Origin: a virus | Length of the DNA stretch: 38,506 nt | Direction: 5' to 3' (one strand) | Virus record (IMG/VR): IMGVR_UViG_3300049255_000549 | Location: 1-38,506 of that record | Shown here: one piece after another, positions 829 through 13,276 of the stretch | Layout: each line of letters starts with the position of its first letter | Position numbering within the stretch: position 1 is the first letter of the stretch | The notes under the pieces: model-generated | Told to the model about the DNA's origin: nothing | What the model saw: only the letters and a program-made list of their open reading frames with translations | Databases searched by the model: none | Translations under genes and position numbers: made by a program

Positions 829-961
829 CACGGGCCTTCTCCAGCTTACGCTTGGCCCGCTTCCGCTTCTTCGCGGCGTCAGTGGTCGGCTTGGGCCTGT
901 AGCGCAGCACCACGTCCGCAACGGCGTCTAAGACCTTCGGCGGCTTCAGTTCTTCGGTCAT
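821..961 (-). CDS. Small basic hypothetical protein
   Basis: A 46-residue open frame rich in Lys and Arg in its second half (AAKKRKRAKRKLEKARDD). Its ATG overlaps the transposase stop as ATGA, and its own TAG overlaps the start of the PP-loop gene, so all three genes appear translationally coupled. The basic C-terminal half suggests nucleic-acid contact, but no family is recognised. The support is the precise double overlap and protein-like composition. Confidence 0.55.
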   Translation of the reverse strand: MTEELKPPKVLDAVADVVLRYRPKPTTDAAKKRKRAKRKLEKARDD

Positions 962-1875
962 GCCGTGAGCGCCTCATAGGTCAGGCGCTTGCCAGCCGTG
1001 CCTGCGATGAAGCTATCCAGCCGCGCCAGTGTGTGGCGCTTCACGTCGCCTTCGTTCAGCCGGAAGGCGAACTCATCGACGTAGCGGCCAAGGTGCTTGG
1101 GGCTGGCGTGGTGATAGACGCCGTGCAGGCCGCGCTTAAGGACCGCCCAGACGCTCTCAATGCTGTTCGTGGTCACTCCGTCGCGGACGTACTCGCCAGC
1201 GCCGTGGTTGATCGTCGCGTGGTCGAAGAACAGACCGCCCAGGCCGATGTAACCGCCATGCTCGTCGGTGTGCAGGGTCGCGCCCACTTCGACGCTGGCG
1301 TGAACCGCGCCGTGCAGGACATTGGCGCTGGCGTTGGGGATGACGCGGGCCTTGGTCCGGCCGCCGCGCTCCCGCATACCCAAGACCGCCGTCTTGCCGA
1401 CGCCGCCGCGACCGAGGCCCTTCTTGTCCTTCTCATGCCGGTTCTTTTCGAGGCCGCCGACGTAGGTTTCGTCGATCTCAACGATGCCTTGAAGCTTCGT
1501 CAGATCGGGACCGCACGCTTCGCGCAGCCGGTGAAGGACGAACCACGCCGACTTCTGCGTGATCCCGATCTCCTTGGCCAACTGCATGCTGGAAATGCCC
1601 TTCCGGGCCGTGACCAGCAGGTACATCGCGTACACCCATTTGTGCAGCGGGACGTGGCTGCGCTCGAAGATGGTTCCGGTCCTCACCGTGAAGTCTTCCT
1701 TGCATTGGTTGCAGCGGTAGAAGCCGCCCTTACGGGCCGTGATCCGCTCGCCCAAGCCGCAAACGGGGCACTTCACCCCATCGGGCCAGAGGCGCTTTTC
1801 GAGGTACACGCGGGCCGTCTCTTGGTCCGGGATCATCGCGAACAATTCGAACGTGGCAATGGTGGACTTGCTCAT
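958..1875 (-). CDS. IS1595 family (ISXO2-like) transposase
   Basis: A 305-residue transposase. An N-terminal zinc ribbon with Cys36, Cys39, Cys55 and Cys58 is followed by a helix-turn-helix-like segment (about 93-120) and the ISXO2-like DDE domain. Candidate catalytic residues are Asp135 (EIDETYVGG), Asp204 (HTDEHGGY) and Glu240 (TNSIESVWAVLKRG). The length is normal for the family and no frameshift is seen, so it may be active. An AGGGAA ribosome site lies about 8 bases before the ATG. The stop overlaps the start of the next gene as ATGA, which is unusual for a simple IS and suggests co-expressed passenger genes. Confidence 0.93.
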   Translation of the reverse strand: MSKSTIATFELFAMIPDQETARVYLEKRLWPDGVKCPVCGLGERITARKGGFYRCNQCKEDFTVRTGTIFERSHVPLHKWVYAMYLLVTARKGISSMQLAKEIGITQKSAWFVLHRLREACGPDLTKLQGIVEIDETYVGGLEKNRHEKDKKGLGRGGVGKTAVLGMRERGGRTKARVIPNASANVLHGAVHASVEVGATLHTDEHGGYIGLGGLFFDHATINHGAGEYVRDGVTTNSIESVWAVLKRGLHGVYHHASPKHLGRYVDEFAFRLNEGDVKRHTLARLDSFIAGTAGKRLTYEALTA

Positions 1876-1947
1876 GCCTTATTCCCTGATTTCTCGGCAC
1901 AAACTACCAATTTTCCGCGAGGGAGTAAAGTATATAAGTCCCCTTTT

Positions 1948-2499
1948 TTAGCCGGCTGGTCGAGCGCGGAGCGTGAAGTGGAGACCGCCGGACGAGGCGC
2001 GGAAATCGACGCCATTGACCACCGTGCTGGTGGTTGACCTGGTCGCCACCATGGCTGCCAGCGTCTGAGAGAGGACGTCCTTTTGATGCGGGTTGGAATT
2101 GGGAATCGTGGCGTCCACCAGCTCAGCAGCGTCTCCTAGGGTCCGGTCACCACTGCCCGAGTCAGTCAATACAATCGAGGAGATCTGGCCGTCGGCGTCG
2201 ACGTAGGCGCGAATGACATTCTCGCGGTCGGAAGGGTCGAACCAGATCGCCCTATAGCGACGATCCTTCTCAGAGATGACAGGACTCCACTCGGCATTCA
2301 TTGCCCGCAGATCGCCGTCATGAGCTTTGAGCCTGTTGGCCATCACTTGAATGTCGCTGGTCCATCCGGCGGCCTTGGCAGCGTCGTTTGGGCGATAAAC
2401 CTTCGAGCCTGAGCATGTCGTAAGCAGGAAACTGCCACCTAATATCGTGATGGCGGCAAGGGCTCCGATACCCTTCGCTACGTTCTGAGTATCAGCCAT
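1948..2499 (-). CDS. Possible lipoprotein or membrane-anchored protein of unknown function
   Basis: 183 residues directly downstream of the repressor on the same strand, so it may be expressed in the lysogen. Residues about 10-29 form a hydrophobic segment ending LLTTC, which resembles a lipoprotein signal; Thr before the Cys is not ideal, so a simple membrane anchor is also possible. The rest looks like a soluble extracytoplasmic domain with no family I recognise. Lysogen-expressed envelope proteins often block superinfection, but that role is inference from position only. The stop codon (1950-1948) is immediately followed by the candidate transposon end, so the original C-terminus may have been longer. 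Confidence 0.7.
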   Translation of the reverse strand: MADTQNVAKGIGALAAITILGGSFLLTTCSGSKVYRPNDAAKAAGWTSDIQVMANRLKAHDGDLRAMNAEWSPVISEKDRRYRAIWFDPSDRENVIRAYVDADGQISSIVLTDSGSGDRTLGDAAELVDATIPNSNPHQKDVLSQTLAAMVATRSTTSTVVNGVDFRASSGGLHFTLRARPAG

Positions 2500-2508
2500 T
2501 GCGTGCCC

Positions 2509-3225
2509 CTAAACAGCTTGCATCTTCATGGCCGCAATGACGCGACCGATAGTTAGGAGTTCGACCTGCTCACCGTCAGCAATCAGCGGCTCAATGGCGG
2601 GATTCTGCGCCGTCAGGGTGAGGCCACCGACCCCTAAGTTCGCTGTCCTAATGATCGGGCGTCCATCTATCAGGAAGACATAGACGCGCCTGTCCCGCAG
2701 AGGATCATCGGGGGGAGCGCAAATTATGAATTCGCCGGTCGGGGCAATCCCTGGCATCGCATCATTTGGCATCTCGGTGACCCAGAGGTCCTTAACCGTC
2801 CGGGCATTCGCGAGCAGCCAAGCGCGACTCACGGGGACGTCCTCCATTTTCTTAGGAGGGCGGACTCCTTCAAACGCGAACAAATCGTAGTGGGGAAGCC
2901 AAACCCACCCGTCCTCATCAACGACATATGGGTCCAGGTCGCGCGGTCCTTCGCCACGGATGAGCCAACGGGTGTGAATCCCTAGCGCGTCAGCCATGGA
3001 GAACGCAGTGTCAGCACCAGGGGTCTTTTGGCCATGATAATATTCATACACCCGCTGACGCCCAATTCCGGTCGCTCTGACTAAGTCCTGCTGACCCATG
3101 GACCGCGCCTCCATCGCTTCCCGCAACCTCAGGCCGAATCCTGCCGAAGAAATCTCCGGTTGACCGCCGCCGCTGCTGCCTTTAGCGTCCTCTTTTGCGG
3201 AAGATTGTCTAGCAGGAGAGGTCAT
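2509..3225 (-). CDS. Phage repressor, HTH plus LexA/S24-like domain
   Basis: A 238-residue repressor-type protein in the position and orientation of Mu c. A helix-turn-helix lies at about residues 30-85 (LREAMEARSMGQQDLVRATGIGRQRVYEYYHG). The C-terminal half (about 145-238) has the S24/LexA layout, ending in a TAQNPAIEP strand. At the usual SM nucleophile position it reads NDAM (Ala156), and the usual Lys position reads IIRTANL (Arg193), so the self-cleavage dyad seems absent. The ATG overlaps the Ner ATG by two bases. No better start keeps the first HTH helix, although an internal start cannot be excluded. It would hold the early operon silent in the lysogen. Confidence 0.88.
   Translation of the reverse strand: MTSPARQSSAKEDAKGSSGGGQPEISSAGFGLRLREAMEARSMGQQDLVRATGIGRQRVYEYYHGQKTPGADTAFSMADALGIHTRWLIRGEGPRDLDPYVVDEDGWVWLPHYDLFAFEGVRPPKKMEDVPVSRAWLLANARTVKDLWVTEMPNDAMPGIAPTGEFIICAPPDDPLRDRRVYVFLIDGRPIIRTANLGVGGLTLTAQNPAIEPLIADGEQVELLTIGRVIAAMKMQAV
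3160..3188 (+). promoter_or_regulatory. Candidate early promoter inside the repressor 5' coding region
   Basis: TTGACC at 3160-3165 is a good -35 match. A weak TAGCGT lies 17 bases further at 3183-3188. Transcription would begin shortly before the AGGAG ribosome site (3213-3217) of the ner gene. It lies inside the repressor coding sequence because there is no intergenic space. The -10 is poor, so this is tentative. Confidence 0.3.
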
Positions 3226-3496
3226 GCCTCGTCAAACTCCCATGCACAAGGAGCGGATCAAAGCCGAGATCCGCATCAAACACGGCTCGCTGAGGGAGTT
3301 TGAACGCAGCAGAGGTCTCCCTGCCCGGTCGGTTGAGGACGTGTTGCGGGGGCGCGCGGTCCGACGGACCGCCGACGCCATCGCCGAGTTCATGGGCACT
3401 TCGGTCACCGCTCTCTTTCCCGGTCGGTTCACGCGCAAGCCCTTAGCTACGTCCGCGAGTGCGGACTGTCATCGTCTAAATAATGGGGCTGCATAG
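3224..3496 (+). CDS. ner: Ner-like early DNA-binding regulator
   Basis: A 90-residue protein divergent from the repressor, as Ner is in Mu. Residues about 7-68 match the Ner/SfsB helix-turn-helix pattern: an initial helix (KERIKAEIRIKHG), a recognition region (LREFERSRGLPARSVEDVLRG) and the family ending TALFPGRF. Ner proteins are small repressors that turn down both the repressor promoter and the early promoter during lytic growth. AGGAGAGG sits 3-10 bases before the ATG at 3224, favouring this start over the Met at 3242. The roughly 22-residue tail after the Ner core is extra and has no obvious role. Confidence 0.8.
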   Translation: MPRQTPMHKERIKAEIRIKHGSLREFERSRGLPARSVEDVLRGRAVRRTADAIAEFMGTSVTALFPGRFTRKPLATSASADCHRLNNGAA

Positions 3497-3498
3497 AC

Positions 3499-4380
3499 AT
3501 GCCCACATTGCAGACCCTGATTGCTGTCCCAGTCGCGGAAATCACGCAGGCCGAAAAGCGGATGAGACCGCTTTATGACCATCACGTGGAGATGCTGGCC
3601 GGACTCCTCAAAACACACGGGCAGCTTCAGCCGATCATAGTCTGTCAGCTTCCTGGCCGGTCAGACTTCATGCTGCTCGACGGCGCCCATCGGCTGGCTG
3701 CCGCGCGCCGCCTCGGATGGACGGAAATCAGAGCCATAAAGGTTGGCAACAAGGCCGGCGAACAACGTGCGCACGAACTCTTCGCCAATTCGGCCCACCT
3801 CGCGCTCAACGCCCTGGACCGAATTGCCATGGTTGCGGTGCTTTATGCCGAGGCGGTGGCGCAGGCGACCGGTGAGCTTGGGCCCAATCTGTACAAGGCC
3901 ATCGCCGATGCTAGGTGGAAGCCTGGAAAGACCCCTGATGACCTGATTGCAGATGCGTCCGCCACCGTGGCGGACGCATTCGGATGGTCAGCCGCTGTCG
4001 CCGAAAGAGCTGGGATCAGCGAGCGCAGTGTCCAGCGGTATGCCGCAATCCACGAGCGCCTCTCGCCAACTGCGGTAGAGCTTATCCGCCAGACAAGTGT
4101 CGCCGACCACCTCAATCAACTCCAGGCGCTTTCTAAGCTGCCTGAGGCAAAACAGATTGAGGTGGCCACCAGCATCAGTGAGGGGGTGGAGTTTGCCGAC
4201 GCCATCGCTTCGGCCCCCGAGGGCAAGCCCAAACAGACAGCATCCCAGAAAGCGGTCAACGCCTTAGAGTCCTCGGTCCTCCGGATCAGCGGCGCCGAGC
4301 TTGAGGACGCGTTTCAACGCTTAGCCCGACAGGCCAAAACCCGAGGCTGGGTCATCACCTTCAAGAGGGCCGCGAAGTGA
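3499..4380 (+). CDS. ParB/Srx-fold DNA-binding protein
   Basis: 293 residues. The N-terminal ParB/sulfiredoxin-like fold has the motif DGAHRLAAARRLG at 61-73, which in ParB proteins binds nucleotide. A helix-turn-helix follows at about 168-186 (AERAGISERSVQRYAAI). The C-terminal third is unassigned. It starts two bases after ner stops and is co-oriented with the early operon. ParB-like proteins in Mu-type phages are usually taken to be regulators rather than partition proteins; no parA neighbour is seen. Base composition is less GC-rich than the genes from 4.6 kb on. A 27-bp palindrome inside its own coding sequence (3953-3979) could be a binding site. Confidence 0.8.
   Translation: MPTLQTLIAVPVAEITQAEKRMRPLYDHHVEMLAGLLKTHGQLQPIIVCQLPGRSDFMLLDGAHRLAAARRLGWTEIRAIKVGNKAGEQRAHELFANSAHLALNALDRIAMVAVLYAEAVAQATGELGPNLYKAIADARWKPGKTPDDLIADASATVADAFGWSAAVAERAGISERSVQRYAAIHERLSPTAVELIRQTSVADHLNQLQALSKLPEAKQIEVATSISEGVEFADAIASAPEGKPKQTASQKAVNALESSVLRISGAELEDAFQRLARQAKTRGWVITFKRAAK
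3953..3979. repeat. 27-bp near-perfect palindrome
   Basis: The arms are ATGCGTCCGCCAC (3953-3965) and its exact reverse complement GTGGCGGACGCAT (3967-3979), around a single central C. It lies within codons 152-160 of the ParB-like gene, just before the HTH. Thirteen matching pairs is far longer than expected by chance in a window of this size. An operator-like or ParB-binding site is possible; function is inference. Confidence 0.75.
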
Positions 4381-4625
4381 GCCGCCTTCCTGTGAAGTGG
4401 ATGCGGTTCACTGAACGCCAAATCGTAGCGTGGTACTGCCGTCGCTCAGAAGCCCTCGCGGTACTCTTGGCAACGGCGGCGTTGCGGGAGGCGGCATTTA
4501 GAATCCGCGATGTCGAGGCCCGCAGGGATCTCCTCAATCTAGCGGTTCGCGCCCACGAGGTGGCCTTCCCAGGCGTGATTCGCCCTCGCTACCGCGTCCC
4601 CGCGCGCCGTCGGGTGCAGCCATGA
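4377..4625 (+). CDS. Small hypothetical early protein
   Basis: 82 residues, GTG start overlapping the ParB-like stop as GTGA, so translation is probably coupled. It is basic and helix-rich (REAAFRIRDVEARRDLLNLAVRAHEVAF) with an arginine-rich end. No family is recognised. The coupled overlaps at both ends are the main evidence that it is real. Confidence 0.65.
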   Translation: MSRLPVKWMRFTERQIVAWYCRRSEALAVLLATAALREAAFRIRDVEARRDLLNLAVRAHEVAFPGVIRPRYRVPARRRVQP

Positions 4626-5065
4626 AGACCGGGCGCGCGGACTGGGATGCCTTTGTGAAGGTGGGGAGCATTCCGGCGGATGAGCCGGTTTTCCTTTTGA
4701 GGGCGCAGAACAGCTGGGCGGCCGAGACCGTGCGGGATTGGGCGGCTAACGGCCTCAGTAAGGGAATGCCGGCCGCCGTCGCCGAGCAAGCCCTGCGCCA
4801 AGCCGACGCCATGGACGCGTGGCCGGTCAAGAAGCCGGTCACCGCCGACCACCTCAGCGACGCCGAGCGCAAGCAGCTGGCCTACGCGCATGCCCGGCGG
4901 GTGTGGAACGTCGGGCGGATGAGCCAGGAGGCGCTGGTCGCCGCCCTGATGCTCGATCTCCTAGCCAATATCGCGGCGGCGCCGGAAGACCCGGCGCTGA
5001 TCAGCCTGAAGGCGCAGGCCGAGGCGATCAGTGAAGCGATCCGGGTGGGGCGCGAGCATGCGTAA
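4622..5065 (+). CDS. Hypothetical early protein
   Basis: 147 residues, ATG overlapping the preceding stop (ATGA). The composition is that of a soluble helical protein, with an N-terminal segment (DEPVFLLRAQNSWAAETVRDWA) followed by long Ala-rich helices to the end. The segment suggests a small regulatory protein, but I recognise no family. It begins the very GC-rich part of the early operon. Confidence 0.7.
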   Translation: MKTGRADWDAFVKVGSIPADEPVFLLRAQNSWAAETVRDWAANGLSKGMPAAVAEQALRQADAMDAWPVKKPVTADHLSDAERKQLAYAHARRVWNVGRMSQEALVAALMLDLLANIAAAPEDPALISLKAQAEAISEAIRVGREHA

Positions 5066-5201
5066 ACCCCGGTCAGAGGCCCAGCTCCGCGAGTGGCTTG
5101 AGTATGTGGCGGCGACCGCCATCGCCATGCTCGATGAACTCGATGCGGCGACCGAGGATCTCGAAGACGACGAGACCGAAGATGATCGGGAGGCCGCATG
5201 A
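5058..5201 (+). CDS. Very small acidic protein
   Basis: 47 residues. It starts inside the end of the previous gene (ATG at 5058) and ends with TGA overlapping the next ATG as ATGA. The first half is a helix (QLREWLEYVAATAIAMLDELD). The second half is strongly acidic (EDLEDDETEDD). Acidic small phage proteins sometimes act as DNA mimics or adaptors, but there is no direct evidence for that here. It is supported by its exact fit in the chain of overlapping genes. Confidence 0.55.
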   Translation: MRKPRSEAQLREWLEYVAATAIAMLDELDAATEDLEDDETEDDREAA

Positions 5202-5437
5202 CGCGTCGCCGGACCCGCGCCTGGAGCTATGGCGTCAAGACCGCCGTCTTAAAGGCCCGCGCCAAGCGCGAGATCGCCAAGATGCGCGCCGCCATCGAGC
5301 GCCTGTCCGCCGACTGGGGCGACGTTTTCGGGCCCGTGGTCTTCGACTGCGATGAGCTGGGCGACAAGATCACCACGCTTGAGGCCACAATCGACGAGGG
5401 CGCGGAATATCTGAAAGAGGCGGACGATGCCGAATAA
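5198..5437 (+). CDS. Small hypothetical protein, coiled-coil-like
   Basis: 79 residues with a basic N-terminus (TRRRTRAWSYGVKTAVLKARAKREIAKM), a short linker and an acidic helix at the end. Coupled by ATGA to the acidic gene before it and overlapping the next gene by 11 bases. No family recognised. The opposite charge of this protein and its 47-residue neighbour would be compatible with the two interacting, which is speculation. Confidence 0.6.
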   Translation: MTRRRTRAWSYGVKTAVLKARAKREIAKMRAAIERLSADWGDVFGPVVFDCDELGDKITTLEATIDEGAEYLKEADDAE

Positions 5438-5906
5438 GCGGCGCCCTGCCTTTTCGACCGACCAACTGGCCTTCAGCTTCGAGCCGGCCGCCACGTCGCG
5501 CGAGGAAGGTGGCTTGACCGGGATCGACCGCGCCGTCGCCTCGGCGGTGAGCGCGGTTCTGAAGGATGATCCCCGCAGCCGTTTCGAGATCGCCGGGGGC
5601 ATGTCGGCCTTGCTGGCCGATGAGGTCTCCAAGGCCATGCTGGACGCCTATTCGGCCGAGGCGCGCGAGAGCCACAACATCTCGCTCAGCCGTTTCCTGG
5701 CGCTCATCGCCGAGACCCAGCGCTACGACGTCCTGGACGCACTTTGCCGTCGAATCGGCTGTCGGACCGTGGTCGGCGAAGAGGTTCTCACCGTCGAGCT
5801 GGGCCACATCGCCAGCCAGATCGAGCGGCTGCGCCAGCGGGAGAAGGTGCTGCGCCGCGTCGCCCCCGAAATAGCCCGCGCGAGCGGTCAGGAGCGGCGC
5901 AAGTGA
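5427..5906 (+). CDS. Hypothetical protein, possible CII/CP76-like regulator
   Basis: 159 residues immediately upstream of muA. The centre (about 75-115: SHNISLSRFLALIAETQRYDVLDALCRRIG) recalls the second half of phage CII/CP76-type regulatory proteins, where a similar segment ends the family core. The N-terminal 30 residues are low complexity and the C-terminus is a basic helix with heptad-like spacing. The family call is weak and rests on one motif. Its stop overlaps the muA start as GTGA, placing it in the transposition operon. Confidence 0.65.
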   Translation: MPNKRRPAFSTDQLAFSFEPAATSREEGGLTGIDRAVASAVSAVLKDDPRSRFEIAGGMSALLADEVSKAMLDAYSAEARESHNISLSRFLALIAETQRYDVLDALCRRIGCRTVVGEEVLTVELGHIASQIERLRQREKVLRRVAPEIARASGQERRK

Positions 5907-7867
5907 GCGTCGAGGGGGGGCAAAAGCTCTGGTACACCGCCGCCGATCTGGCCGCACTGGCGCTGCCTGGCCTGCCGCGCGTCAAGCGCAAGATCAACGA
6001 GCTGGCGGCCGACAAGAAGTGGGCCTTTCGTAAGGCTTCTGACGGGTCAGACCTTTGCCGCCCCCGCGCGGGGCGGGGCGGTGGCCTGGAATATCACGTC
6101 GATCTCCTGCCACCCGCCGCCACGGCGGAAATGGCCCGGCGCGGGCTCCTCAGCGTCCGCGATATCGCCCCTAACGTCGTTCCTATTCGACCGACGCCCG
6201 CGCCGGATAGCCAGTGGGCCTGGTTTGAGCGCCAGAGCGACAAGGTCCGTGAGGAAGCGCGTCGCCGGATGAGGGCCCTCGATGTGGTCGCGGCTATCGA
6301 ACGCTCGGGCCAGACGCGCTCCGCCGCCGTCGCCCAGGTGGCCGCCACCCATTGCGTGTCGGCAGCGACAATCTGGGGCTGGATGAGCCTTTGCGCCGGC
6401 GCCAGCGCACTCGACCGGCTGCCACGGCTTGCCGCGCGGCGGGTCGGCGGCGGCGCCGAGGCGGAGATCGACGATCTGGCCTGGCAGGTGTTCAAAAGCG
6501 ACTATCTGCGGCCCGAGAAGCCGACCTACAGCAGCTGCTACCACCGCCTCAAAGCCTGGGCGGCGCCGCGCGGCATCGAGATCCCTCACGTCAAGACGCT
6601 GCAGAGGAAACTGGAGCGCGAGGTCGACGGCCGGGTAATCCTGTCGCAACGCGACGGGGCCGAGGCCCTGCGCCGCGCCCTGCCGCCCCAGCAACGCACC
6701 GTGGCCGATCTTGAGGCCTTGGAGCTGGTCAATATCGACGGCCACAAGTGGGACGTCTTCGTCCGCTGGCCGGACGGCCGCATCGGCCGCCCCATGATGG
6801 TGGCGATACAGGACGTCTACAGCCGCAAGGTCCTGGCCTGGCGCATCGGCGAATCCGAGAACGTCACCCTGACCCGGCTGGCCTTTGCCGACGTCTTCAA
6901 GACCTACGGCATCCCGGCCGGCTGCCTCCTCGACAACGGCCGGGCCTTTGCGTCCAAGGCCATCACCGGCGGCGCGAAGACCCGTTTTCGGTTCAAGATC
7001 CGCGACGAAGATCCGGCTGGCCTCCTCACCTCGCTTGGCGTCGAGATCCACTGGGCGACTCCCTATCGAGGCCAGTCCAAGCCCATCGAGCGGGGTTTCC
7101 GCGACCTCTGCGATCATGGCGCCAAGCACCCGGCTTTCGCCGGCGCCTATACCGGCAACAAGCCAGACGCCAAGCCTGAGAACTACGGGTCCAAGGCGGT
7201 CGATCTGGCCGACTTCATCGCCAACGCGGGCCAGGTTATCGCCGCCCACAATGCGCGCCTGGGTCGGCGCACCGAGACGTCACGCGGTGGGAGCTTTGAC
7301 CAGGCGTTCGAGCACTCCTACGCCCGCGCCACGGTCCGCAAGGCGACACCTGAGCACCTGCGGATGGCGCTTCTGGCCGCCGATCAGGTCACCGCGGACC
7401 GCCAGTCCGGGGCCATTCACCTCTATGAGAACCGCTACTGGTCGCCGGAACTCAGCGCCCATGCCGGGACCCGCGTGACGGTCCGGTTCGACCCCGATGA
7501 CCTCAGCCTGCCGGTCCATGTTTACGACCTGGAGGGCCGATTCCTGGTCACCGCCGAGGCCATTGAGGCGACCGGCTTCCTGGATGTGTCCGCCGCCAAG
7601 GCGCGCGCCAAGCTAGAGGCCAACTGGCGGGCCGCGACGCGGCGGGCCGCCGAGGCCGAGCAGCTGCTCTCACCCGGCCAAATCGCCGCGCTTCTCCCCA
7701 TCGACGACACAGCCCCGACCGTGCCGCCCGCCGCCGCCATCCGGCCGGTTCGCCATCGCGGCACGGCCGCCGCCGCCGTGGTGCGCGCGCCCCTGATTGA
7801 TCGCTTGAGTTTTGAGGATTTGGCCCCGGCGCCGGAGGCGAGAGCCCCCCTGCGCCTGGTCGAATGA
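5903..7867 (+). CDS. muA: MuA-like transposase (DDE recombinase)
   Basis: 654 residues, close to the 663 of MuA. Order: an N-terminal winged-HTH of the Mu I-beta type (LWYTAADLAALALPGLPRVKRKINELAADKKW), a helical end-binding region, the RNaseH-like DDE core and a MuA C-terminal region. Catalytic residues are Asp279 (NIDGHKWD), Asp344 (LLDNGRAF) and Glu396 (SKPIERGFRDL), with spacing nearly as in MuA (269, 336, 392). The GTG at 5903 overlaps the upstream stop and starts exactly at the first domain, so the longer frame from 5744 is rejected. It catalyses strand transfer during integration and replicative transposition, with MuB as target-DNA partner. It looks intact. Confidence 0.96.
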   Translation: MSVEGGQKLWYTAADLAALALPGLPRVKRKINELAADKKWAFRKASDGSDLCRPRAGRGGGLEYHVDLLPPAATAEMARRGLLSVRDIAPNVVPIRPTPAPDSQWAWFERQSDKVREEARRRMRALDVVAAIERSGQTRSAAVAQVAATHCVSAATIWGWMSLCAGASALDRLPRLAARRVGGGAEAEIDDLAWQVFKSDYLRPEKPTYSSCYHRLKAWAAPRGIEIPHVKTLQRKLEREVDGRVILSQRDGAEALRRALPPQQRTVADLEALELVNIDGHKWDVFVRWPDGRIGRPMMVAIQDVYSRKVLAWRIGESENVTLTRLAFADVFKTYGIPAGCLLDNGRAFASKAITGGAKTRFRFKIRDEDPAGLLTSLGVEIHWATPYRGQSKPIERGFRDLCDHGAKHPAFAGAYTGNKPDAKPENYGSKAVDLADFIANAGQVIAAHNARLGRRTETSRGGSFDQAFEHSYARATVRKATPEHLRMALLAADQVTADRQSGAIHLYENRYWSPELSAHAGTRVTVRFDPDDLSLPVHVYDLEGRFLVTAEAIEATGFLDVSAAKARAKLEANWRAATRRAAEAEQLLSPGQIAALLPIDDTAPTVPPAAAIRPVRHRGTAAAAVVRAPLIDRLSFEDLAPAPEARAPLRLVE

Positions 7868-7871
7868 AGGT

Positions 7872-7902
7872 GGCGGCGGAGGGCTGGAACCCCTCCGCCG
7901 CC
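7872..7902 (+). terminator. Strong hairpin between muA and muB (attenuator-like)
   Basis: GGCGGCGGAGGG (7872-7883) and CCCTCCGCCGCC (7891-7902) form a perfect 12-bp stem with a 7-base loop, five bases after the muA stop. No T-run follows, so it is not a classical intrinsic terminator. It could pause polymerase, protect the mRNA end or lower muB relative to muA. Structure is certain; effect is inference. Confidence 0.55.
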
Positions 7903-7936
7903 TGGACTGCAACACAGCAACGAAAGGACGCCTACC

Positions 7937-8893
7937 ATGAACGCCAATCTCGGCAAAACCGAGTTTACCCCCGAGGAGATCGACGATCTCCGCGACCGGC
8001 TGCGGGCCTATAAGGATTCGGCCGGCCTTTCCTGGGCTGACCTCGCCAAGGTCACGGGCGCCACGGCCGGAACCCTCTCTCAGTGGGTTCCCGGGACCTA
8101 TAACGGTGGCAGCATTTACGGCCACATGGACACCCCGGCGCGGGTCCATCGCTTCTTCCTCGGCCTTGAGGAGAAGGCCTCCCTCGAAGCCATCATGCCG
8201 ACGGAGCCGCACTTCCAGCAGACCCTGTCGTCGCGCCGGATGATGACCTGTCTCGCCATGGCGCATCTGGGCGACATGGCTCTGATCTCGACACCGCCCG
8301 GCGTCGGCAAGACCGCCTCGATCAAGCAATACGCCGCCACGCGCGGTCAGGTGACGGTGGTCACGGCCAGCCCCTCGAACCGGGGCGCCGCGACGCTCCT
8401 GATCGCGATCCTAGCGGCCATGGGAGAGAAGGAAGCCAAGGGGACGCCCCAGGTGCTCTCGGCGCGGGTTCGGGCGCGGGTGCGCGGGGCCGGCGCGCTG
8501 ATCATCATCGATGAGGCCCAGCACCTCTCGGCCCAGGCCCTCGACGAGATCCGCTCGATCCACGACGACACCGAGTGTGGGATCGCCCTGGTCGGCGATG
8601 AGACCCTGGTCGCCAACCTTAGGAAATACCCCCAGCTCTACAGCCGTCTCGGCATCCGCCACAGCCAGCCCCGGCCGCTCGCGGAAGACATCGGCGTGAT
8701 CGCCGAGGCCTGGGGTGTCACCAAGGGCCCGGCGCTGGCCTACCTGCATGAGATCGGCCGCAAGAGCGGCGGCATCCGCACCCTCACCAAGACCATGAAG
8801 CTGGCGGTCCGCGCCGCCCGCGCCAGCGGCGCGCCCCTGGATGTCACGGACCTGCGCGACGCCTGGGCCCAGCGCTTTGGGGAGACCGCCTAA
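7937..8893 (+). CDS. muB: MuB-like AAA+ ATPase, transposition target protein
   Basis: 318 residues (MuB is 312). An N-terminal helix-turn-helix at about 31-52 (LSWADLAKVTGATAGTLSQW) is followed by an AAA+ ATPase domain with Walker A TPPGVGKT at 119-126 and Walker B ALIIIDEAQ at 187-195, then a helical C-terminus. MuB binds DNA in an ATP-dependent way, delivers target sites to MuA and protects the element from self-integration. AAAGGA precedes the ATG at good spacing. Unlike most of its neighbours it is not overlapped with the gene before it, being separated by the hairpin at 7872-7902. Confidence 0.94.
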   Translation: MNANLGKTEFTPEEIDDLRDRLRAYKDSAGLSWADLAKVTGATAGTLSQWVPGTYNGGSIYGHMDTPARVHRFFLGLEEKASLEAIMPTEPHFQQTLSSRRMMTCLAMAHLGDMALISTPPGVGKTASIKQYAATRGQVTVVTASPSNRGAATLLIAILAAMGEKEAKGTPQVLSARVRARVRGAGALIIIDEAQHLSAQALDEIRSIHDDTECGIALVGDETLVANLRKYPQLYSRLGIRHSQPRPLAEDIGVIAEAWGVTKGPALAYLHEIGRKSGGIRTLTKTMKLAVRAARASGAPLDVTDLRDAWAQRFGETA

Positions 8894-8894
8894 G

Positions 8895-9137
8895 ATGGCC
8901 CTCCTCATCATCAACGACATGCGCCGAAACATCGGGGCTATCGAAACCCTGGCGAAGGCTGGGGTCCTGACGCCGGAAAAGCTCCACTACTTCCTGCTGG
9001 CGCTGGAGACGGGCGTGGAGTGCGTCGAGGCCTATCTCGACAGCGCCCGGGTCTCCAACCGCGACCTGGAGCCGCCCCCGCGCATTCCGGGGCGACCGTT
9101 CCTTGCCTGGTCCAACCCGGCGGGAGGCGCGGCATGA
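8895..9137 (+). CDS. Small hypothetical protein
   Basis: 80 residues beginning two bases after the muB stop. It is helix-rich at first (MRRNIGAIETLAKAGVLTPEKLHYFLLALETGVECVEAYLD), then proline-rich. The frame opens further upstream, but the ATG at 8895 gives the natural spacing. No family recognised. The next gene overlaps it as ATGA. Confidence 0.65.
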   Translation: MALLIINDMRRNIGAIETLAKAGVLTPEKLHYFLLALETGVECVEAYLDSARVSNRDLEPPPRIPGRPFLAWSNPAGGAA

Positions 9138-9298
9138 CCCGGCAAGGCCCCCTTTTCGTCGATATCGCCGCCCTCGGCGACCTGACGCGCTGGCGTCGGG
9201 TCTGGCGTCGCCGCCTGCGGCTGCGACACGTCCTGACCCCCGTCGCCCTCACAATACTCGCCCTAGAGGCTGCCGTCTGGCTGGCCCGTAACACTTGA
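9134..9298 (+). CDS. Small single-pass membrane protein
   Basis: 54 residues from the ATG overlapping the previous stop (ATGA). The N-terminal half is basic (LTRWRRVWRRRLRLRH), followed by one hydrophobic segment (VLTPVALTILALEAAVWLA), so the positive-inside rule puts the N-terminus in the cytoplasm. Small membrane proteins in phage early regions can affect host envelope or superinfection, but there is no family match to support a role. Confidence 0.6.
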   Translation: MTRQGPLFVDIAALGDLTRWRRVWRRRLRLRHVLTPVALTILALEAAVWLARNT

Positions 9299-9309
9299 AA
9301 GGACAAACC

Positions 9310-9963
9310 ATGAACGACCTCACGCCCACCGCCGTCGAGCTGGCCCCGGGCCATGTCTCGATCTCCGGCCGCCTCTACATGACCGACCCTAAGGGCGCTC
9401 TGGTTCCCGTCGACGCGGTGCCGGCCCAGCGCAAGCTGGAAGATGATCTGGTCCGCAAGATCGTGGGTTATGCCGAGCCCCTGGCCGCCGAGATCGCCCG
9501 CTTCCGCGCCCACACCTTCGATGACGTGGACAGCTTCGTCGCCCTCCTGGAACAGCAGTACAAGGCGCGCGGCGGGGCCAAGGGAAACCTCACCTTCACC
9601 AGCTTCGACGGCTTGCTGCGGGTCAAGGTCCAGGTCTCCGACCAGATCGTCTTCGGCCCGGAACTGCAGGTCGCCAAGGGCCTGGTGGACGAGTGCATCC
9701 AGGAATGGTCGGACGATATCCCCGACGAACTTCGGGTGCTGATCAATGGCGCCTTCGACGTCGATCACGCCAACCAGATCAATCGCGGACGCCTGCTGCA
9801 GCTGCTGACCTACGAGATCGAGAAGCCCAAGTGGGTCGAGGCGATGAAGGCCATCCGCGACTCGATCCGCGTCGTGGGCTCGAAGCGGTATGTGAACATG
9901 TACCGCCGCGCCGATCCTCAGGCGCCCTGGGTCCATGTCGCCCTGGACGCCGCCGCGTCATGA
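9310..9963 (+). CDS. DUF3164 family protein
   Basis: 217 residues matching the DUF3164 family common in the early region of Mu-like phages, which is sometimes mislabelled sulfate transporter. Recognisable parts are the mid-region LTFTSFDGLLRVKVQVSDQI and the C-terminal segment (about 155-195) with KWVEAMKAIRDSI and GSKRYVN. The ATG at 9310 has AAAGGA at good spacing and is chosen over an upstream TTG. The biochemical function is unknown. It follows muB and sits before small coupled genes, as in relatives. Confidence 0.88.
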   Translation: MNDLTPTAVELAPGHVSISGRLYMTDPKGALVPVDAVPAQRKLEDDLVRKIVGYAEPLAAEIARFRAHTFDDVDSFVALLEQQYKARGGAKGNLTFTSFDGLLRVKVQVSDQIVFGPELQVAKGLVDECIQEWSDDIPDELRVLINGAFDVDHANQINRGRLLQLLTYEIEKPKWVEAMKAIRDSIRVVGSKRYVNMYRRADPQAPWVHVALDAAAS

Positions 9964-10172
9964 GCACCCTCGATCTCATCCAGGAGGCCGAGGCGCTGAT
10001 CCAGCTCTACGGCGACGCCCTATCGGAGTTCGAATACGGGCTGGTCTGGGGCATCATCATCCGCGACCGTGGCTGTGGCCCGCGTGTCCTGACGGCGTCC
10101 GAAAGCCAGGTCTTCGTCGACTCCATTGACGCCATGCGGGCCGTGCGGGTGAAGGCCCTGCAAGCCCCATGA
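9960..10172 (+). CDS. Small hypothetical protein
   Basis: 70 residues, coupled at both ends (ATGA with the DUF3164 gene; overlap with the next ATG). It is a compact acidic protein with an N-terminal helix and a short central segment FEYGLVWGIIIRDRGCG. No family recognised. Confidence 0.62.
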   Translation: MSTLDLIQEAEALIQLYGDALSEFEYGLVWGIIIRDRGCGPRVLTASESQVFVDSIDAMRAVRVKALQAP

Positions 10173-10678
10173 GCCGCGCGAACTCTAAGACCCAGCCGGT
10201 CGCCTTCGAGCGCTTCTGGGCGGCCTATCCGGACCGGCCGGATAACCCCAAGGCCGCCGCGCGCCAGGTGTTCGAGCGCCGGGTCCGCGAGGGCGCGGAT
10301 CCGGAGGTCATCGTGGCCGCCGCCGGCCGCTATCGGGCCTTCGTGGCCGGCCGCAAGCTGGACTCGCTCTACATCCCCCACGCCCGCACCTGGCTCAGCC
10401 AGCGGCGCTGGGAGGATTATGCCGAGGCGCCGGTCGAGACAGCCGCGTGGGCGCCGGACCCAGGCCATCCGCTAGCCTTCCTGCTGGAGAAGACTGGCGA
10501 GGCCTATTGGCGGTCCTGGTGTGAGCCCGTCGCCCTGGATCCGGATTTCCCGACGCCCTGTCTCCGGTTCCGCACTCATCTGGCCCTTGACCGCGTGGGG
10601 CGAGACTGGGGCGCGGAGATCAACGCCCACTTTGGCGAGGCGGTCACTCTCGTTTTTGATCTGGTGGTGCGGTCATGA
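10169..10678 (+). CDS. Phage replication-type C-terminal domain protein
   Basis: 169 residues. Residues about 12-85 match the small helical domain often found at the C-terminus of phage replication and helix-turn-helix proteins: FERFWAAYPDRPDNPKAAARQVFERRV, then AAAGRYRAFVAGR and YIPHARTWLSQRRWEDY. Here it stands almost alone with an unassigned C-terminal half. In other phages the domain accompanies DNA replication or DnaT-like functions; in a transposing phage its job is unclear. The start overlaps the preceding stop (ATGA). Confidence 0.75.
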   Translation: MSRANSKTQPVAFERFWAAYPDRPDNPKAAARQVFERRVREGADPEVIVAAAGRYRAFVAGRKLDSLYIPHARTWLSQRRWEDYAEAPVETAAWAPDPGHPLAFLLEKTGEAYWRSWCEPVALDPDFPTPCLRFRTHLALDRVGRDWGAEINAHFGEAVTLVFDLVVRS

Positions 10679-11235
10679 ACATCGTCCCCGACAATCGCTG
10701 GACCGAAGATGCCAAGGTCTTGGTCTCCAACCTCTGGACCGAGGGCAAGTCCGCCACTGAGATCAGCGCGCTCTTGGCGCAGACCCTCGGGCTGAAGAAG
10801 TCCCGCAACGGCGTCATTGGCATCATCCATCGCCTGGGGCTGAGTGGGCCTCGGGCCCAGCGCTCCGCCCCCGTCACGCCGCGCCAAAAAGCCTCAAAGT
10901 CCCGCACGGTGATCCCCTCGCCGCCTGGGCCGGAGGCGGCGCCTGACCAGCTGATGGTGGTCCTGGCGCCCGGGCGAAAATCCCATGTGCCTGTCGTCGT
11001 CTGTGTCGGCCATCCGCCCTCCCGCGAGGCCGCCACGGTCCAGGCCAAGCGCCTGATCGAACTTGCAGCCAGGGACTGCAGATTCCCGGTCGGCGACGCC
11101 ACGGGGATCGACCAGCTCCACTGCGCTCGCCGTTCGCCCGAAGGGGACACCTATTGCGTCCACCATCGCCAGATCGCGGGCGGCCGGCGCGTCGCCGTGG
11201 CGGGTCCGGTCAAGGTCCCGAGGTATGCGCGATGA
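10675..11235 (+). CDS. GcrA-family cell-cycle regulator-like protein
   Basis: 186 residues with the two hallmarks of GcrA. The N-terminal DNA-binding HTH at about 8-58 has RWTEDAKVLVSNLWTEGKSATEI and SRNGVIGIIHRLGLSG. The C-terminal part at about 125-170 has LIELAARDCRFPVGDATG, CARRSPEGDTYCVHHRQIA, which in GcrA is the sigma70-contacting Cys/His region. GcrA works with sigma70 and CcrM-methylated GANTC sites to control S-phase genes in Alphaproteobacteria. A long Pro/Lys linker joins the parts. It is coupled by overlaps to genes on both sides, so it is a phage gene and not host DNA. Whether it acts on phage or host promoters is unknown. Confidence 0.88.
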   Translation: MNIVPDNRWTEDAKVLVSNLWTEGKSATEISALLAQTLGLKKSRNGVIGIIHRLGLSGPRAQRSAPVTPRQKASKSRTVIPSPPGPEAAPDQLMVVLAPGRKSHVPVVVCVGHPPSREAATVQAKRLIELAARDCRFPVGDATGIDQLHCARRSPEGDTYCVHHRQIAGGRRVAVAGPVKVPRYAR

Positions 11236-11534
11236 GGCCCCGCGTCCGCCTGATCCTCAATGTCGTGGCGACCAAGGCCGGCTTTGAGGCCGCCGATCTC
11301 CTGGCTCATCGCCGGGGCAAGGCCCTCGACCGCGCCCGGCGCCGGGCCCTTTGGGCCTCGAAGACTCTGAGGCCCGACATGTCCTTTCCCCAGATCGGCC
11401 GGATCGTCGAACGCCACCACGCCAGCGTCATCCATGCGCGCGTCGCCACCGAGGCGCTTCTGCGGGTCGATGAGCGGGAGCGGGCGGCCTGTGACGCCAT
11501 CGTCGCCGCCGTCATCGAGGGAGTCGGGATATGA
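11232..11534 (+). CDS. DnaA domain IV-like DNA-binding protein
   Basis: 100 residues comprising essentially only the C-terminal DNA-binding domain of DnaA. A basic helix (KALDRARRRALWASKTLRPDMSF) leads to the HTH PQIGRIVERHHASVIHARV, matching the DnaA signature around DHTTVLHA. The AAA+ domain is absent, so it cannot initiate like DnaA but could bind DnaA-box-type sequences or compete with the host DnaA. The ATG overlaps the GcrA-like stop (ATGA), so the two are probably made together. Confidence 0.82.
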   Translation: MRPRVRLILNVVATKAGFEAADLLAHRRGKALDRARRRALWASKTLRPDMSFPQIGRIVERHHASVIHARVATEALLRVDERERAACDAIVAAVIEGVGI

Positions 11535-11785
11535 GCGCCAAGCGCCGCCCGCTTAAGGTCTCGGTAGATTGGACGCCAGCCATCGCTGAGCTGTTTCAGA
11601 TCGTGCCCGGCGATTGGACCGCACCGGCGAAGGCACACCTCGTACAGACCGCTCAAGGCAATATCACGGTCTCCGCTCGTTACGTTATGCCAAACGGCGC
11701 CCCCACAATGGCCCGGGTGCGGCTACGTCGGGACCGAGACGGCGACTGGTTTAGCACCGAACAAAGTTTGGCGGTCCGGCTGTGA
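11531..11785 (+). CDS. Hypothetical protein
   Basis: 84 residues, probably a small beta-rich protein (HLVQTAQGNITVSARYVM, TMARVRLRRDRDGDW). No family recognised. Its codon use is visibly less GC-biased than its neighbours, hinting at a separate origin. It is nonetheless overlapped with genes on both sides (ATGA and GTGA). Confidence 0.62.
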   Translation: MSAKRRPLKVSVDWTPAIAELFQIVPGDWTAPAKAHLVQTAQGNITVSARYVMPNGAPTMARVRLRRDRDGDWFSTEQSLAVRL

Positions 11786-12270
11786 CCGCCCGGGCCGCCC
11801 TCGCCAAGGTCGCCATCGCGCGCAAGGAACTGGGTCTCGATGAGGAGACCTATCGCGCCGTTCTGACGCGGCTGACGGGGCAGGAGTCCGCCAAGGCCTG
11901 CACGGACCGGCAGCTCGGGCTCGTCCTCGATGAGTTCAAGGCCAAGGGGTGGAAGCCACACGCAAAGGTGTTGGCTCGCAACACGAAGCTCCGGCTGGTC
12001 GATCCCCCGGCAGTGCGGAAGGCGCGGGCGCTGTGGATCTCGCTCCACCAGCTCGGCGTCGTGCGAGATCGCACGGATGCGGCCCTGGACAGTTTCGCGG
12101 TCAAGCAGATCGGGAAGCCTCTACGTGAGGCCGACGCGGCGCGTCTCTACAAGCTGATCGAGGCGCTCAAGGCCATGGCGGAACGCGCCGGCTGGGATCA
12201 GTCGGGCGACCCCGACGAGATCAGAGCGCGACTGACAAAGCTCCTGGAGGCGCGCGGCGGCCGTGGCTGA
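11782..12270 (+). CDS. gemA: GemA family regulatory protein (Mu gp16-like)
   Basis: 162 residues of the GemA/DUF1018 family. The typical opening is present (KVAIARKELGLDEETYRAVLTRLTGQESAK), followed by QLGLVLDEFKAKGW and a C-terminal half with ALWISLHQLGVV and AARLYKLIEALKAM. In Mu, GemA affects host gene expression and DNA supercoiling. GTG start overlapping the previous stop. It sits two genes before the Mor-type activator, the usual arrangement. Confidence 0.92.
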   Translation: MTARAALAKVAIARKELGLDEETYRAVLTRLTGQESAKACTDRQLGLVLDEFKAKGWKPHAKVLARNTKLRLVDPPAVRKARALWISLHQLGVVRDRTDAALDSFAVKQIGKPLREADAARLYKLIEALKAMAERAGWDQSGDPDEIRARLTKLLEARGGRG

Positions 12271-12439
12271 GCCGGCGCCCCATCAGCCGGACCTTCTCGT
12301 GGCGGCGGCCGAGGCCGCGCGCCAGGAGGCGGCCAGGCGTTGGCGCAATGCGCCCTGGGGCTGTCGCACCGAGCGGTTCAAGGCCTTCCAGGAGGCCACT
12401 CAGAAGGCTCTCAGGGCCTCTTTAGAGGCGCGCAAATGA
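12263..12439 (+). CDS. Small hypothetical protein between gemA and mor
   Basis: 58 residues from a GTG at 12263 that overlaps the gemA stop. Its TGA overlaps the next ATG as ATGA. The sequence is a helical Ala/Arg-rich protein (AAEAARQEAARRWRNAPWGCRTERFKAFQEATQKALRAS). It is short and GTG-initiated. The exact fit between its two neighbours is the main support. Confidence 0.55.
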   Translation: MAEPAPHQPDLLVAAAEAARQEAARRWRNAPWGCRTERFKAFQEATQKALRASLEARK

Positions 12440-12819
12440 CCCGCGCGGACGAGCAGATCGAGGGGATGGAGGCCACCGCCGCCAACCTCGTCCGGCTGCT
12501 GGGCGAGGACGGCGCGCGGGCTCTGGCCCAGGCCTTTGGGGGTCGCCGGCTCTACGTCCCCCGCCAGCCAGGCGCTCACCATCCGATTACTGTCGCCGTG
12601 GGCCAGCAGGCCGCCGAGCGCCTGGCCGCCGCCTTCCATGGCGTAGGGATCGACGTTCCCGTCATGCCGGCCACCCGAACCGAGATCCGGCGCCTGGACG
12701 CCGAGGGCCTGACCCGTGCCGATATCGCCCGCAAGCTGGGGATCACCGAGCGATGGGTTTACAAAACCCTCGCCGAGGCACCATCCTTGCCAAGCCGTCA
12801 GGGCCGCCTCTTCGGCTGA
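12436..12819 (+). CDS. mor: Mor/C family transcription activator
   Basis: 127 residues of the Mor family. The N-terminal dimerisation part has LVRLLGEDGARALAQAFGGRRLYVPR and the C-terminal HTH has LDAEGLTRADIARKLGITERWVYKTLAE. In Mu, Mor activates the middle promoter and its relative C activates late promoters; only one family member is seen here, so it may do both. It is the last gene before a palindromic late-promoter candidate at 12828 and is presumably its activator. Start at 12436 by ATGA overlap. Confidence 0.92.
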   Translation: MTRADEQIEGMEATAANLVRLLGEDGARALAQAFGGRRLYVPRQPGAHHPITVAVGQQAAERLAAAFHGVGIDVPVMPATRTEIRRLDAEGLTRADIARKLGITERWVYKTLAEAPSLPSRQGRLFG

Positions 12820-12821
12820 CC

Positions 12822-12863
12822 CCTTCACCCTGAATTAATTCAGGGCGGATTGCCCGCCTTCGG
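12822..12863 (+). promoter_or_regulatory. Late promoter element, copy 1 (lysis operon)
   Basis: The 18-bp perfect palindrome CCCTGAATTAATTCAGGG (12828-12845), preceded by CCTTCA and followed 11 bases later by CCTTCGG (12857-12863). The same arrangement with identical spacing occurs at 23331-23372. It sits between mor and the endolysin gene, the place of Mu Plys, so a Mor/C binding site is the best guess. A CTAGCG a few bases further (12868-12873) may be part of the -10. Confidence 0.7.
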
Positions 12864-12880
12864 ACCTCTAGCGTCCGACC

Positions 12881-13276
12881 ATGGACACCCGTTCCGAAGC
12901 CAATCTGGAGAAGGTCCACCCGGACCTCGCCAAGATCATCCGCGCGGCGGCGCAAGCGCCCCAGCCGTTCGTGGTGACCTACGGGATCCGCACGGTCGAG
13001 GCCGAGGCGCAAGCCTGCGCCAGCGGCCACTCCATGACCATGCACTCCCGCCACCTGGCGAGCGACGACGGCCTCTGCCGCGCGGTCGATGTGACGCCTT
13101 TGGTGGCCGGCGAGATCAGCTTCGCCCCCGGCCGTGAGGCTCAGGTCTATGGCTGGGTCGCCCAGCAGATCAAAGGCGCGGCCCTGGCGCTCGACCTGCC
13201 GGTCGAGTGGGGCGGCGACTGGGAGACCTTCAAGGATTGGGGTCACTTTCAACTGCCCTGGAGCACCTATCCGTGA
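12881..13276 (+). CDS. M15 family peptidase, probable endolysin
   Basis: 131 residues of the L-alanyl-D-glutamate peptidase / VanY-like M15 group. The typical opening NLEKVHPDLAKIIRAAAQ is followed by zinc-site motifs: His58 (MHSRHL), Asp70 (CRAVDVTP) and His122 (DWGHFQLPW). It would cut peptide cross-links of murein for host lysis. There is no signal peptide, so export depends on a holin, and the adjacent gene is a candidate. No convincing Shine-Dalgarno precedes the ATG, and the start is very close to the expected transcription start, so it may be leaderless. Confidence 0.88.
   Translation: MDTRSEANLEKVHPDLAKIIRAAAQAPQPFVVTYGIRTVEAEAQACASGHSMTMHSRHLASDDGLCRAVDVTPLVAGEISFAPGREAQVYGWVAQQIKGAALALDLPVEWGGDWETFKDWGHFQLPWSTYP

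Follow-up and report, generated by a model that had tools for sequence, protein, structure and literature searches.

Overlapping genes for a DnaA domain I-like Rep protein, a GcrA-family protein and a DnaA domain IV-only protein in the early operon of a Mu-like phage

The early operon of a Mu-like phage of alphaproteobacteria contains three consecutive, overlapping genes, which encode a Rep-like protein with a DnaA domain I-like C-terminal half, a GcrA-family protein and a protein that represents DnaA domain IV alone. The pairing of the last two genes recurs in other phages, and both genes evolve faster than the operon's core. The three proteins are tentatively interpreted as early-operon adaptors to the host machinery, and each would be built from the part with which a cell-cycle protein makes its contacts. 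The window analysed spans all 38,506 bases of a virus record in IMG/VR and contains no host sequence. The relevant genes are as follows.

5744 to 7867, plus strand: MuA transposase (PF02914; PHROG 310, 499 bits)
7937 to 8893, plus strand: MuB transposition ATPase (PF09077/PF13401)
9295 to 9963, plus strand: DUF3164 protein belonging to the Mu-like early operon (PF11363, 213 bits)
10169 to 10678, plus strand: Rep-like protein of 169 residues, with a C-terminal half (about 10463 to 10675) that is DnaA domain I-like (PHROG 270; PF11638 in relatives; AlphaFold2 fold)
10675 to 11235, plus strand: GcrA-family protein of 186 residues, with a DNA-binding domain, a linker and a Cys/Cys/Cys/His domain of the sigma70-contact type (PF07750)
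11232 to 11534, plus strand: DnaA domain IV-only protein of 100 residues from its ATG (PF08299; AlphaFold2; alignment)
11531 to 11785, plus strand: ATGA-linked gene for an 84-residue protein, without a Pfam match and with homologues in the relatives L005, L009 and L012
11782 to 12270, plus strand: GemA (PF06252, 105 bits)
12433 to 12819, plus strand: Mor-type transcription activator (PF08765; PHROG 836, late transcriptional activator)

The Mu-like early genes lie in the order MuA, MuB, DUF3164, GemA and Mor and are followed by Mu head and tail genes. The window is assigned to a Mu-like phage, as in the first-pass annotation, because MuA, MuB, GemA and Mor share one operon and Mu-type head and tail genes are present. 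The order of MuA, MuB, GemA and Mor is that of the phage Mu early operon (A-B-...-gemA-mor), but the window adds the genes for Rep/DnaA-I, GcrA and DnaA-IV between DUF3164 and GemA. The run of genes at 10169-10678, 10675-11235, 11232-11534 and 11531-11785 is joined by ATGA overlaps at the Rep/GcrA (TCATGAAC), GcrA/DnaA-IV (CGATGAGG) and DnaA-IV/next gene (ATATGAGC) junctions. The GcrA/DnaA-IV pair had been reported as ATGA-overlapped, and its coordinates, frames and junction agree with that report. Elsewhere in the window, the left end bears an IS1595/ISXO2-type transposase gene (958-1875, minus strand) in the orientation opposite to that of the early operon, and one protein carries a PBECR2 (phage-Barnase-EndoU-ColicinE5/D-RelE-like) nuclease domain.

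The 186-residue protein matches PF07750 (GcrA) in a Pfam profile search with a score of 82 bits (E 7.7e-23; cut-off 26.9), residues 8-168 being aligned to positions 2-144 of the 155 of the profile. It had been proposed to be a full GcrA-family protein that a profile search should recover, and this match over nearly its whole length bears out the proposal. The protein contains a GcrA-type HTH (WT...LW.eGkSA.EI...RN.VIG..HRLGLS) and a C-terminal Cys/Cys/Cys/His part, and a profile of its family matches the C. crescentus GcrA chains 7YE1, 5YIU and 5YIX in the DNA-binding and sigma-contact domains. At the orthologue level, its score against the NCBIfam equivalog NF050816 is 80.6 bits, below the cut-off of 280, and it is therefore a GcrA-like family member rather than a GcrA orthologue. 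It shares the full domain plan of C. crescentus GcrA, with the HTH (RN.VIG..HRLGLSG), the linker and the C-terminal part (C..P.G...C...YC..H), but differs from it in a 5-residue insertion before the recognition helix, which is present in the window and most relatives, and in being encoded by a phage, next to pieces of DnaA. GcrA makes contact with domain 2 of the sigma factor and promotes open complexes where promoters are methylated (PMC7403470). Proteins of the GcrA family are likewise encoded by phiCbK-like phages, which are large virulent siphophages and not transposable phages like that of the window (PMC3556154). In the passages considered, no DnaA parts are reported alongside their GcrA (PMC3556154). 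The window protein is 26% identical to phiCbK-like phage GcrA.

The 100-residue protein matches PF08299 (Bac_DnaA_C) with a score of 42.5 bits (E 6.6e-11; cut-off 31.5) at residues 7-69. This is its sole Pfam match, and AAA+ domain III is absent from it. The AlphaFold2 model (pLDDT 96) has DnaA domain IV structures as its best PDB matches (3PVP, 1J1V and 8BTG; TM 0.85-0.91 against 3PVP and 1J1V) and superposes on domain IV bound to DnaA-box DNA. The first-pass annotation described a DnaA stripped to its DNA-binding domain. This description is correct for 11232-11534 itself, which encodes domain IV alone according to both the PF08299 match and the fold, but is incomplete in that a domain I-like part is encoded two genes upstream. 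The phage resembles the chromosomal initiator DnaA in having the domain IV fold and, in the nearby Rep protein, a probable domain I, but differs from it in that these domains are on separate proteins and domain III is missing. The DnaA-box signature R432-D433-H434-T435-T436 of E. coli DnaA is replaced by RHHAS in the window protein (RHHASV instead of RDHTTV), so that in the alignment the equivalents of Asp433 and Thr435 are lost and two base-contact positions are changed. Most of the DnaA-IV relatives in the alignment retain RDHTT, and the motif differs even among close relatives, being RHHAS in the window, RDHTT in L003 and L012, and RHHTS in L009.

Candidate sites for the two proteins were counted in the phage DNA. 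The DnaA box TTATNCACA does not occur in the phage, which says little because only 0.08 is expected. GANTC occurs at 70 sites, as compared with 184 expected from dinucleotide shuffles and 83 expected from a maximal-order Markov model. Because the ratio shrinks to 0.84 under the latter model, neither avoidance nor enrichment is claimed. GANTC is not concentrated at the repressor/early region either (8 sites as compared with 7.2). Masking or mimicry of DnaA boxes, as proposed from the first reading of the sequence, therefore finds no support in the box count, which is uninformative alone, or in the change from RDHTT to RHHAS at the contact residues, and the proposed use of promoters with GANTC is unsupported by the number and distribution of these sites. 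These results also bear on the unlikely alternative that the two proteins override the host cycle, in such a way that the DnaA-IV protein blocks or retimes oriC by occupying host DnaA boxes, while sigma70 is steered by the GcrA-like protein towards host promoters with methylated GANTC. According to the first reading, the pair might let the phage time its replication or keep the host in one stage. Retention of RDHTT by most relatives agrees with this alternative, as do the fast evolution described below, which fits host-facing proteins, and the proposal that phiCbK-like phages alter the host state with their GcrA (PMC3556154). It is weakened by the loss of the Asp433 and Thr435 equivalents in the window and by the lack of DnaA boxes and of GANTC enrichment, in counts that cover the phage record, which contains no host DNA. 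It is also weakened by the precedent of GafY (HdaB), which was first read as a DnaA-cycle factor and later assigned to transcription of a GTA (PMC9632790). Adaptors to the host RNA polymerase and helicase seem better supported than DnaA-box masking or GANTC promoter use.

The gene at 10169-10678, which is ATGA-linked upstream of gcrA and is absent from the first-pass annotation, encodes a Rep-like protein whose C-terminal half is predicted to be DnaA domain I-like. Its N-terminal half contains a domain ('FWxxYPxRPxNPKAAAR') that in replication initiators of phages is found at the C-terminus, and is matched by PHROG 270, a replication initiation protein, at 65 bits. PF11638 (DnaA_N) is detected in five of the six members of this Rep family, in four of them above the cut-off of 24.6 (35.4 bits in L005, 31.7 in L007, 33.3 in L009 and 33.0 in L012; 18.1 in L003), and does not match the copy in the window. 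Domain I is assigned to the window copy because it aligns to the PF11638-positive relatives and because the best PDB matches of its AlphaFold2 model, with the fold H-H-E-E-H-E, are DnaA domain I (Foldseek: 4TPS, probability 1.00, E 0.028; 2WP0, 0.99; also 2E0G). With domain I on one flank and DnaA-IV on the other, gcrA would thus be enclosed by the two terminal domains of a DnaA from which the AAA+ motor is missing. In 45 records of Mu-like viruses, no DnaA_N domain is found outside the clade that bears GcrA. In E. coli DnaA, Phe46 of domain I binds DnaB, and a DciA domain that resembles DnaA domain I has been proposed to aid DnaB binding (PMC9825169). The position of this helicase-contact residue is occupied by Leu in the window Rep, and by Tyr or Ile in the DnaA of Caulobacteraceae itself.

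Among 50 records found through MuA, a DnaA-IV match is present in 20, in 17 of them above the cut-off. GcrA is present in 6 of these 20 records as compared with 1 of the other 30 (Fisher p 0.012, relatedness of the records being ignored), and the single GcrA in the latter group is at the far end of its record. DnaA-IV is the gene immediately after GcrA in the window and in four other lineages of its clade (L003, L007/L008, L009 and L012). L005 has a truncated GcrA-like protein and a DnaA-IV gene upstream of MuA. In less close relatives, DnaA-IV lies between MuB and GemA without GcrA, and many relatives retain DnaA-IV without GcrA or Rep. A family profile finds DnaA-IV relatives on at least 466 virus contigs. 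Among the best 80 of these loci, most DnaA-IV open reading frames have no Walker motif, a check that misses some full-length DnaA proteins such as that of L221, and a GcrA-like gene, confirmed by Pfam in those tested, is also present in 10, two pairs of which are near-duplicates. This gene is within 1 kb of DnaA-IV in 9 of the 10 and on the same strand in all of them. GcrA is the commonest Pfam family among the immediate neighbours of DnaA-IV (5 of 75). Conversely, a GcrA motif retrieves 70 contigs, and in 7 of them a DnaA-IV gene lies within about 2.1 kb in the same orientation. Close pairs are known from about 14 further phage contigs, mostly outside the clade of the window, in addition to the four other lineages, and the pair is not unique to this genome. 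The suggestion that the pairing is meaningful, for which a survey of adjacency had been proposed, is strengthened by this recurrence on one strand in the set tested and by a single fusion protein, that of L337, in which a GcrA-type HTH (PF07750, 32.4 bits) is joined to DnaA-IV (83 bits). Scans of viral contigs with the single GcrA or DnaA-IV protein of the window, and a phage tblastn search with DnaA-IV, do not find relatives. These null results reflect divergence rather than absence, because MuA-guided retrieval and the family profile recover relatives.

Several related arrangements were seen in the same searches. In L337 (3348-4627), a complete GcrA precedes the fusion protein. A fusion on virus contig L223 (2706-3788) joins sigma70 region 4 (39.8 bits) to DnaA domain IV (108 bits) and is possibly a sigma-like factor with a DnaA DNA-binding domain. 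In phage MW202785 (L142, 4999-5534), an unannotated GcrA-like gene (83 bits) ATGA-overlaps a replisome organizer gene. Tandem DnaA-IV domains in phage proteins, or several DnaA-IV genes per early region, are found in L014, L025 and L272, and DnaA-like HTH proteins are scattered through phage annotation. On virus contig L221 (2268-5232), a full-length DnaA with domains I, III and IV adjoins a Rep that has a DnaA domain I of its own at the C-terminus. This contig was considered as a non-Mu phage with all three parts and was rejected, because its supposed DnaA-IV gene encodes full-length DnaA; it is therefore excluded from the domain-IV-only cases.

Among genomes, the closest relatives of the MuA protein come from Sphingomonas, Asticcacaulis, a MAG of the Caulobacteraceae and a MAG without assignment. 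Rep, whole or as its N-terminal domain, is encoded in 8 of the 249 genomes of Caulobacteraceae, and 4 of these cases are Mu-like prophages. A second, small DnaA-IV protein is present in about half of the Caulobacteraceae genomes searched. The small proteins retrieved mostly belong to one clade, which has the motif RDRTT and is recognised as GafY-like by the gafZ-like neighbour that several of its members have. Caulobacter GafY/HdaB is, like the window protein, a small domain-IV-only relative of DnaA. It is encoded by a phage-derived element, binds promoters as an activator, and acts through sigma70 by contacting, with IHF, domains 3-4 of RpoD (PMC9632790, PMC11150451). Membership of the window protein in the GafY-like clade was rejected, since this clade (support 100/99) excludes it in a tree of 82 columns that resolves little else. 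Unlike the GafY-like proteins, the window protein has RHHAS and is not followed by a gafZ-like partner, the gene at 11531 being unlike the gafZ-like neighbours by inspection.

Prophages bear on another, improbable alternative, namely that the phage uses a split initiator. DnaA-IV would provide the sequence-specific DNA contact and Rep, with its YPxR and DnaA-I parts, the helicase contact, so that DnaB is loaded without ATP-dependent melting, and GcrA would only regulate the operon. Such a division is consistent with the Mu-like prophage L164, in which DnaA-IV with a canonical RDHTT directly follows Rep and gcrA is missing, and with non-Mu prophages in which DnaA-IV adjoins replication genes (L207 with HTH_36, L208 with DUF1376 and L169, where the Rep has no recognised N-terminal HTH). 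It is also consistent with the absence from the window Rep of the HTH_36 of full-size initiators (L167 and L168). However, iterons and clustered or origin-like repeats are not found at 1-13000 of the window, and many Mu-like relatives have DnaA-IV without a Rep that bears domain I. In addition, Mu-type replication starts at the transposition ends and does not need an origin.

In each of two closely related pairs, GcrA and DnaA-IV evolve at several times the rate of MuA. Between the window and L003, MuA, MuB, DUF3164, GemA and Mor are 90-94% identical with dN/dS of 0.06-0.11, whereas GcrA is 54% identical with dN/dS of 0.50 (bootstrap 0.34-0.69) and DnaA-IV is 45% identical with dN/dS of 0.47 (bootstrap 0.27-0.67). 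The N-terminal half of Rep is 88% identical in this pair, and its DnaA-I half 57%. Between L012 and L009, the values are 91% (dN/dS 0.15) for MuA, 91% (0.27) for Rep, 90% (0.27) for GemA and 88% (0.26) for MuB, as compared with 70% (0.60) for GcrA and 58% (0.50) for DnaA-IV, and the contrast with MuB and GemA is thus smaller. For this pair, dN/dS of Mor is 0.34, a weak value in that the aligned row begins in upstream sequence, and DUF3164 gives no usable alignment. The dS values of GcrA and DnaA-IV are similar to those of their neighbours or modestly higher, and gene replacement alone is therefore insufficient to explain the divergence. Two small early genes (5198-5437 and 8841-9137) have dN/dS of 0.44-0.51 against L003 and are as fast as GcrA and DnaA-IV, so that relaxed constraint is possible. 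That the genes are mobile accessories under relaxed selection, kept for local regulation and adjacent only through co-location in a hypervariable slot, would agree with dN/dS near 0.5, with the varying contents of the slot and with the presence of GcrA in only part of the clade, but is quite unlikely in view of the intact frames, the ATGA overlap that links GcrA with DnaA-IV in different lineages, the bootstrap limits below 1, the repeated occurrence of GcrA next to DnaA-IV, in the same orientation, in unrelated phages, and one fusion protein.

The adaptor interpretation is based on the precedents of GafY, GcrA and DnaA domain I, which make one of the three proteins a carrier of a helicase-contact type domain and the other two DNA-binding types linked to sigma70. 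It is also based on the confinement of DnaA_N to the GcrA-bearing clade and the location of DnaA-IV beside replication genes, as well as on the proximity of GcrA and DnaA-IV, the fusions in L337 and L223, the overlap with the replisome organizer gene in MW202785 and the high dN/dS. Gene order, overlaps, domain families and folds, the repeated pairing and the fast evolution are observations, whereas the binding partners given below, and any direction of effect on phage or host, are what we infer. Through its DnaA domain I, the Rep-like protein probably brings the DnaB helicase of the host onto phage DNA once transposition has taken place. In the GcrA-like protein, the HTH would bind DNA, and a contact with domain 2 of sigma70 is probable. 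The DnaA-IV protein would bind DNA sites of its own and is probably either a sigma70-dependent activator, by analogy with GafY, or the DNA anchor of Rep. None of them can be a full initiator, because none has the AAA+ motor of DnaA. Points against the adaptor interpretation are that candidate sites are not recognised in the phage (DnaA boxes, GANTC enrichment or iterons), that the window Rep has Leu where E. coli DnaA has Phe46, that many relatives have DnaA-IV but not GcrA or Rep, that the genes at 5198 and 8841 are equally fast, and that the contrast with MuB and GemA is smaller in L012/L009. A bolder and somewhat doubtful possibility is that the three overlapping genes work as one unit, in which a DnaA that is split up and independent of ATP (domain I carried by Rep, domain IV free) acts in concert with a phage sigma70 cofactor. 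This unit would couple the start of phage replication to phage or host transcription and evolve fast against the host, and versions of it would repeatedly have emerged among the phages of cell-cycle-regulated alphaproteobacteria.

GcrA in phages (PMC3556154) and a domain-IV-only DnaA (GafY) are each known alone. In contrast, the GcrA/DnaA-IV pairing, and the presence of DnaA-I and DnaA-IV in separate genes of a single phage operon, appear not to have been described in the open-licence literature. Reports of phage GcrA date back to 2012 and offer no mechanism, and GafY/HdaB, the one studied case of a domain-IV-only DnaA, has had its function reassigned. The recurrent phage GcrA and DnaA domains are defined, small, expressible proteins with which the engagement of the alphaproteobacterial cell-cycle network by phages can be probed. 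The cassette allows one to ask whether DnaA domains I and IV can act apart from the AAA+ motor, and bears on how a transposable phage recruits the helicase in hosts using DciA, not DnaC. Caulobacter is such a host.

Two further observations were made. In the Caulobacteraceae MAG that holds L111, a plasmid-type initiator, so named by inspection, has a C-terminal DnaA domain I (PF11638; L141, 319-1734), and DnaA-I as the C-terminal part of initiators may be a general feature of mobile elements. The observed/expected ratio of GANTC under the maximal-order Markov model is 0.74-0.88 in the GcrA-bearing clade (window, L003, L007, L009 and L012) and 0.04-0.20 in the other Mu-like phages L041, L049 and L143, one of which is from Sinorhizobium; this contrast may reflect the host or the use of the sites by GcrA.
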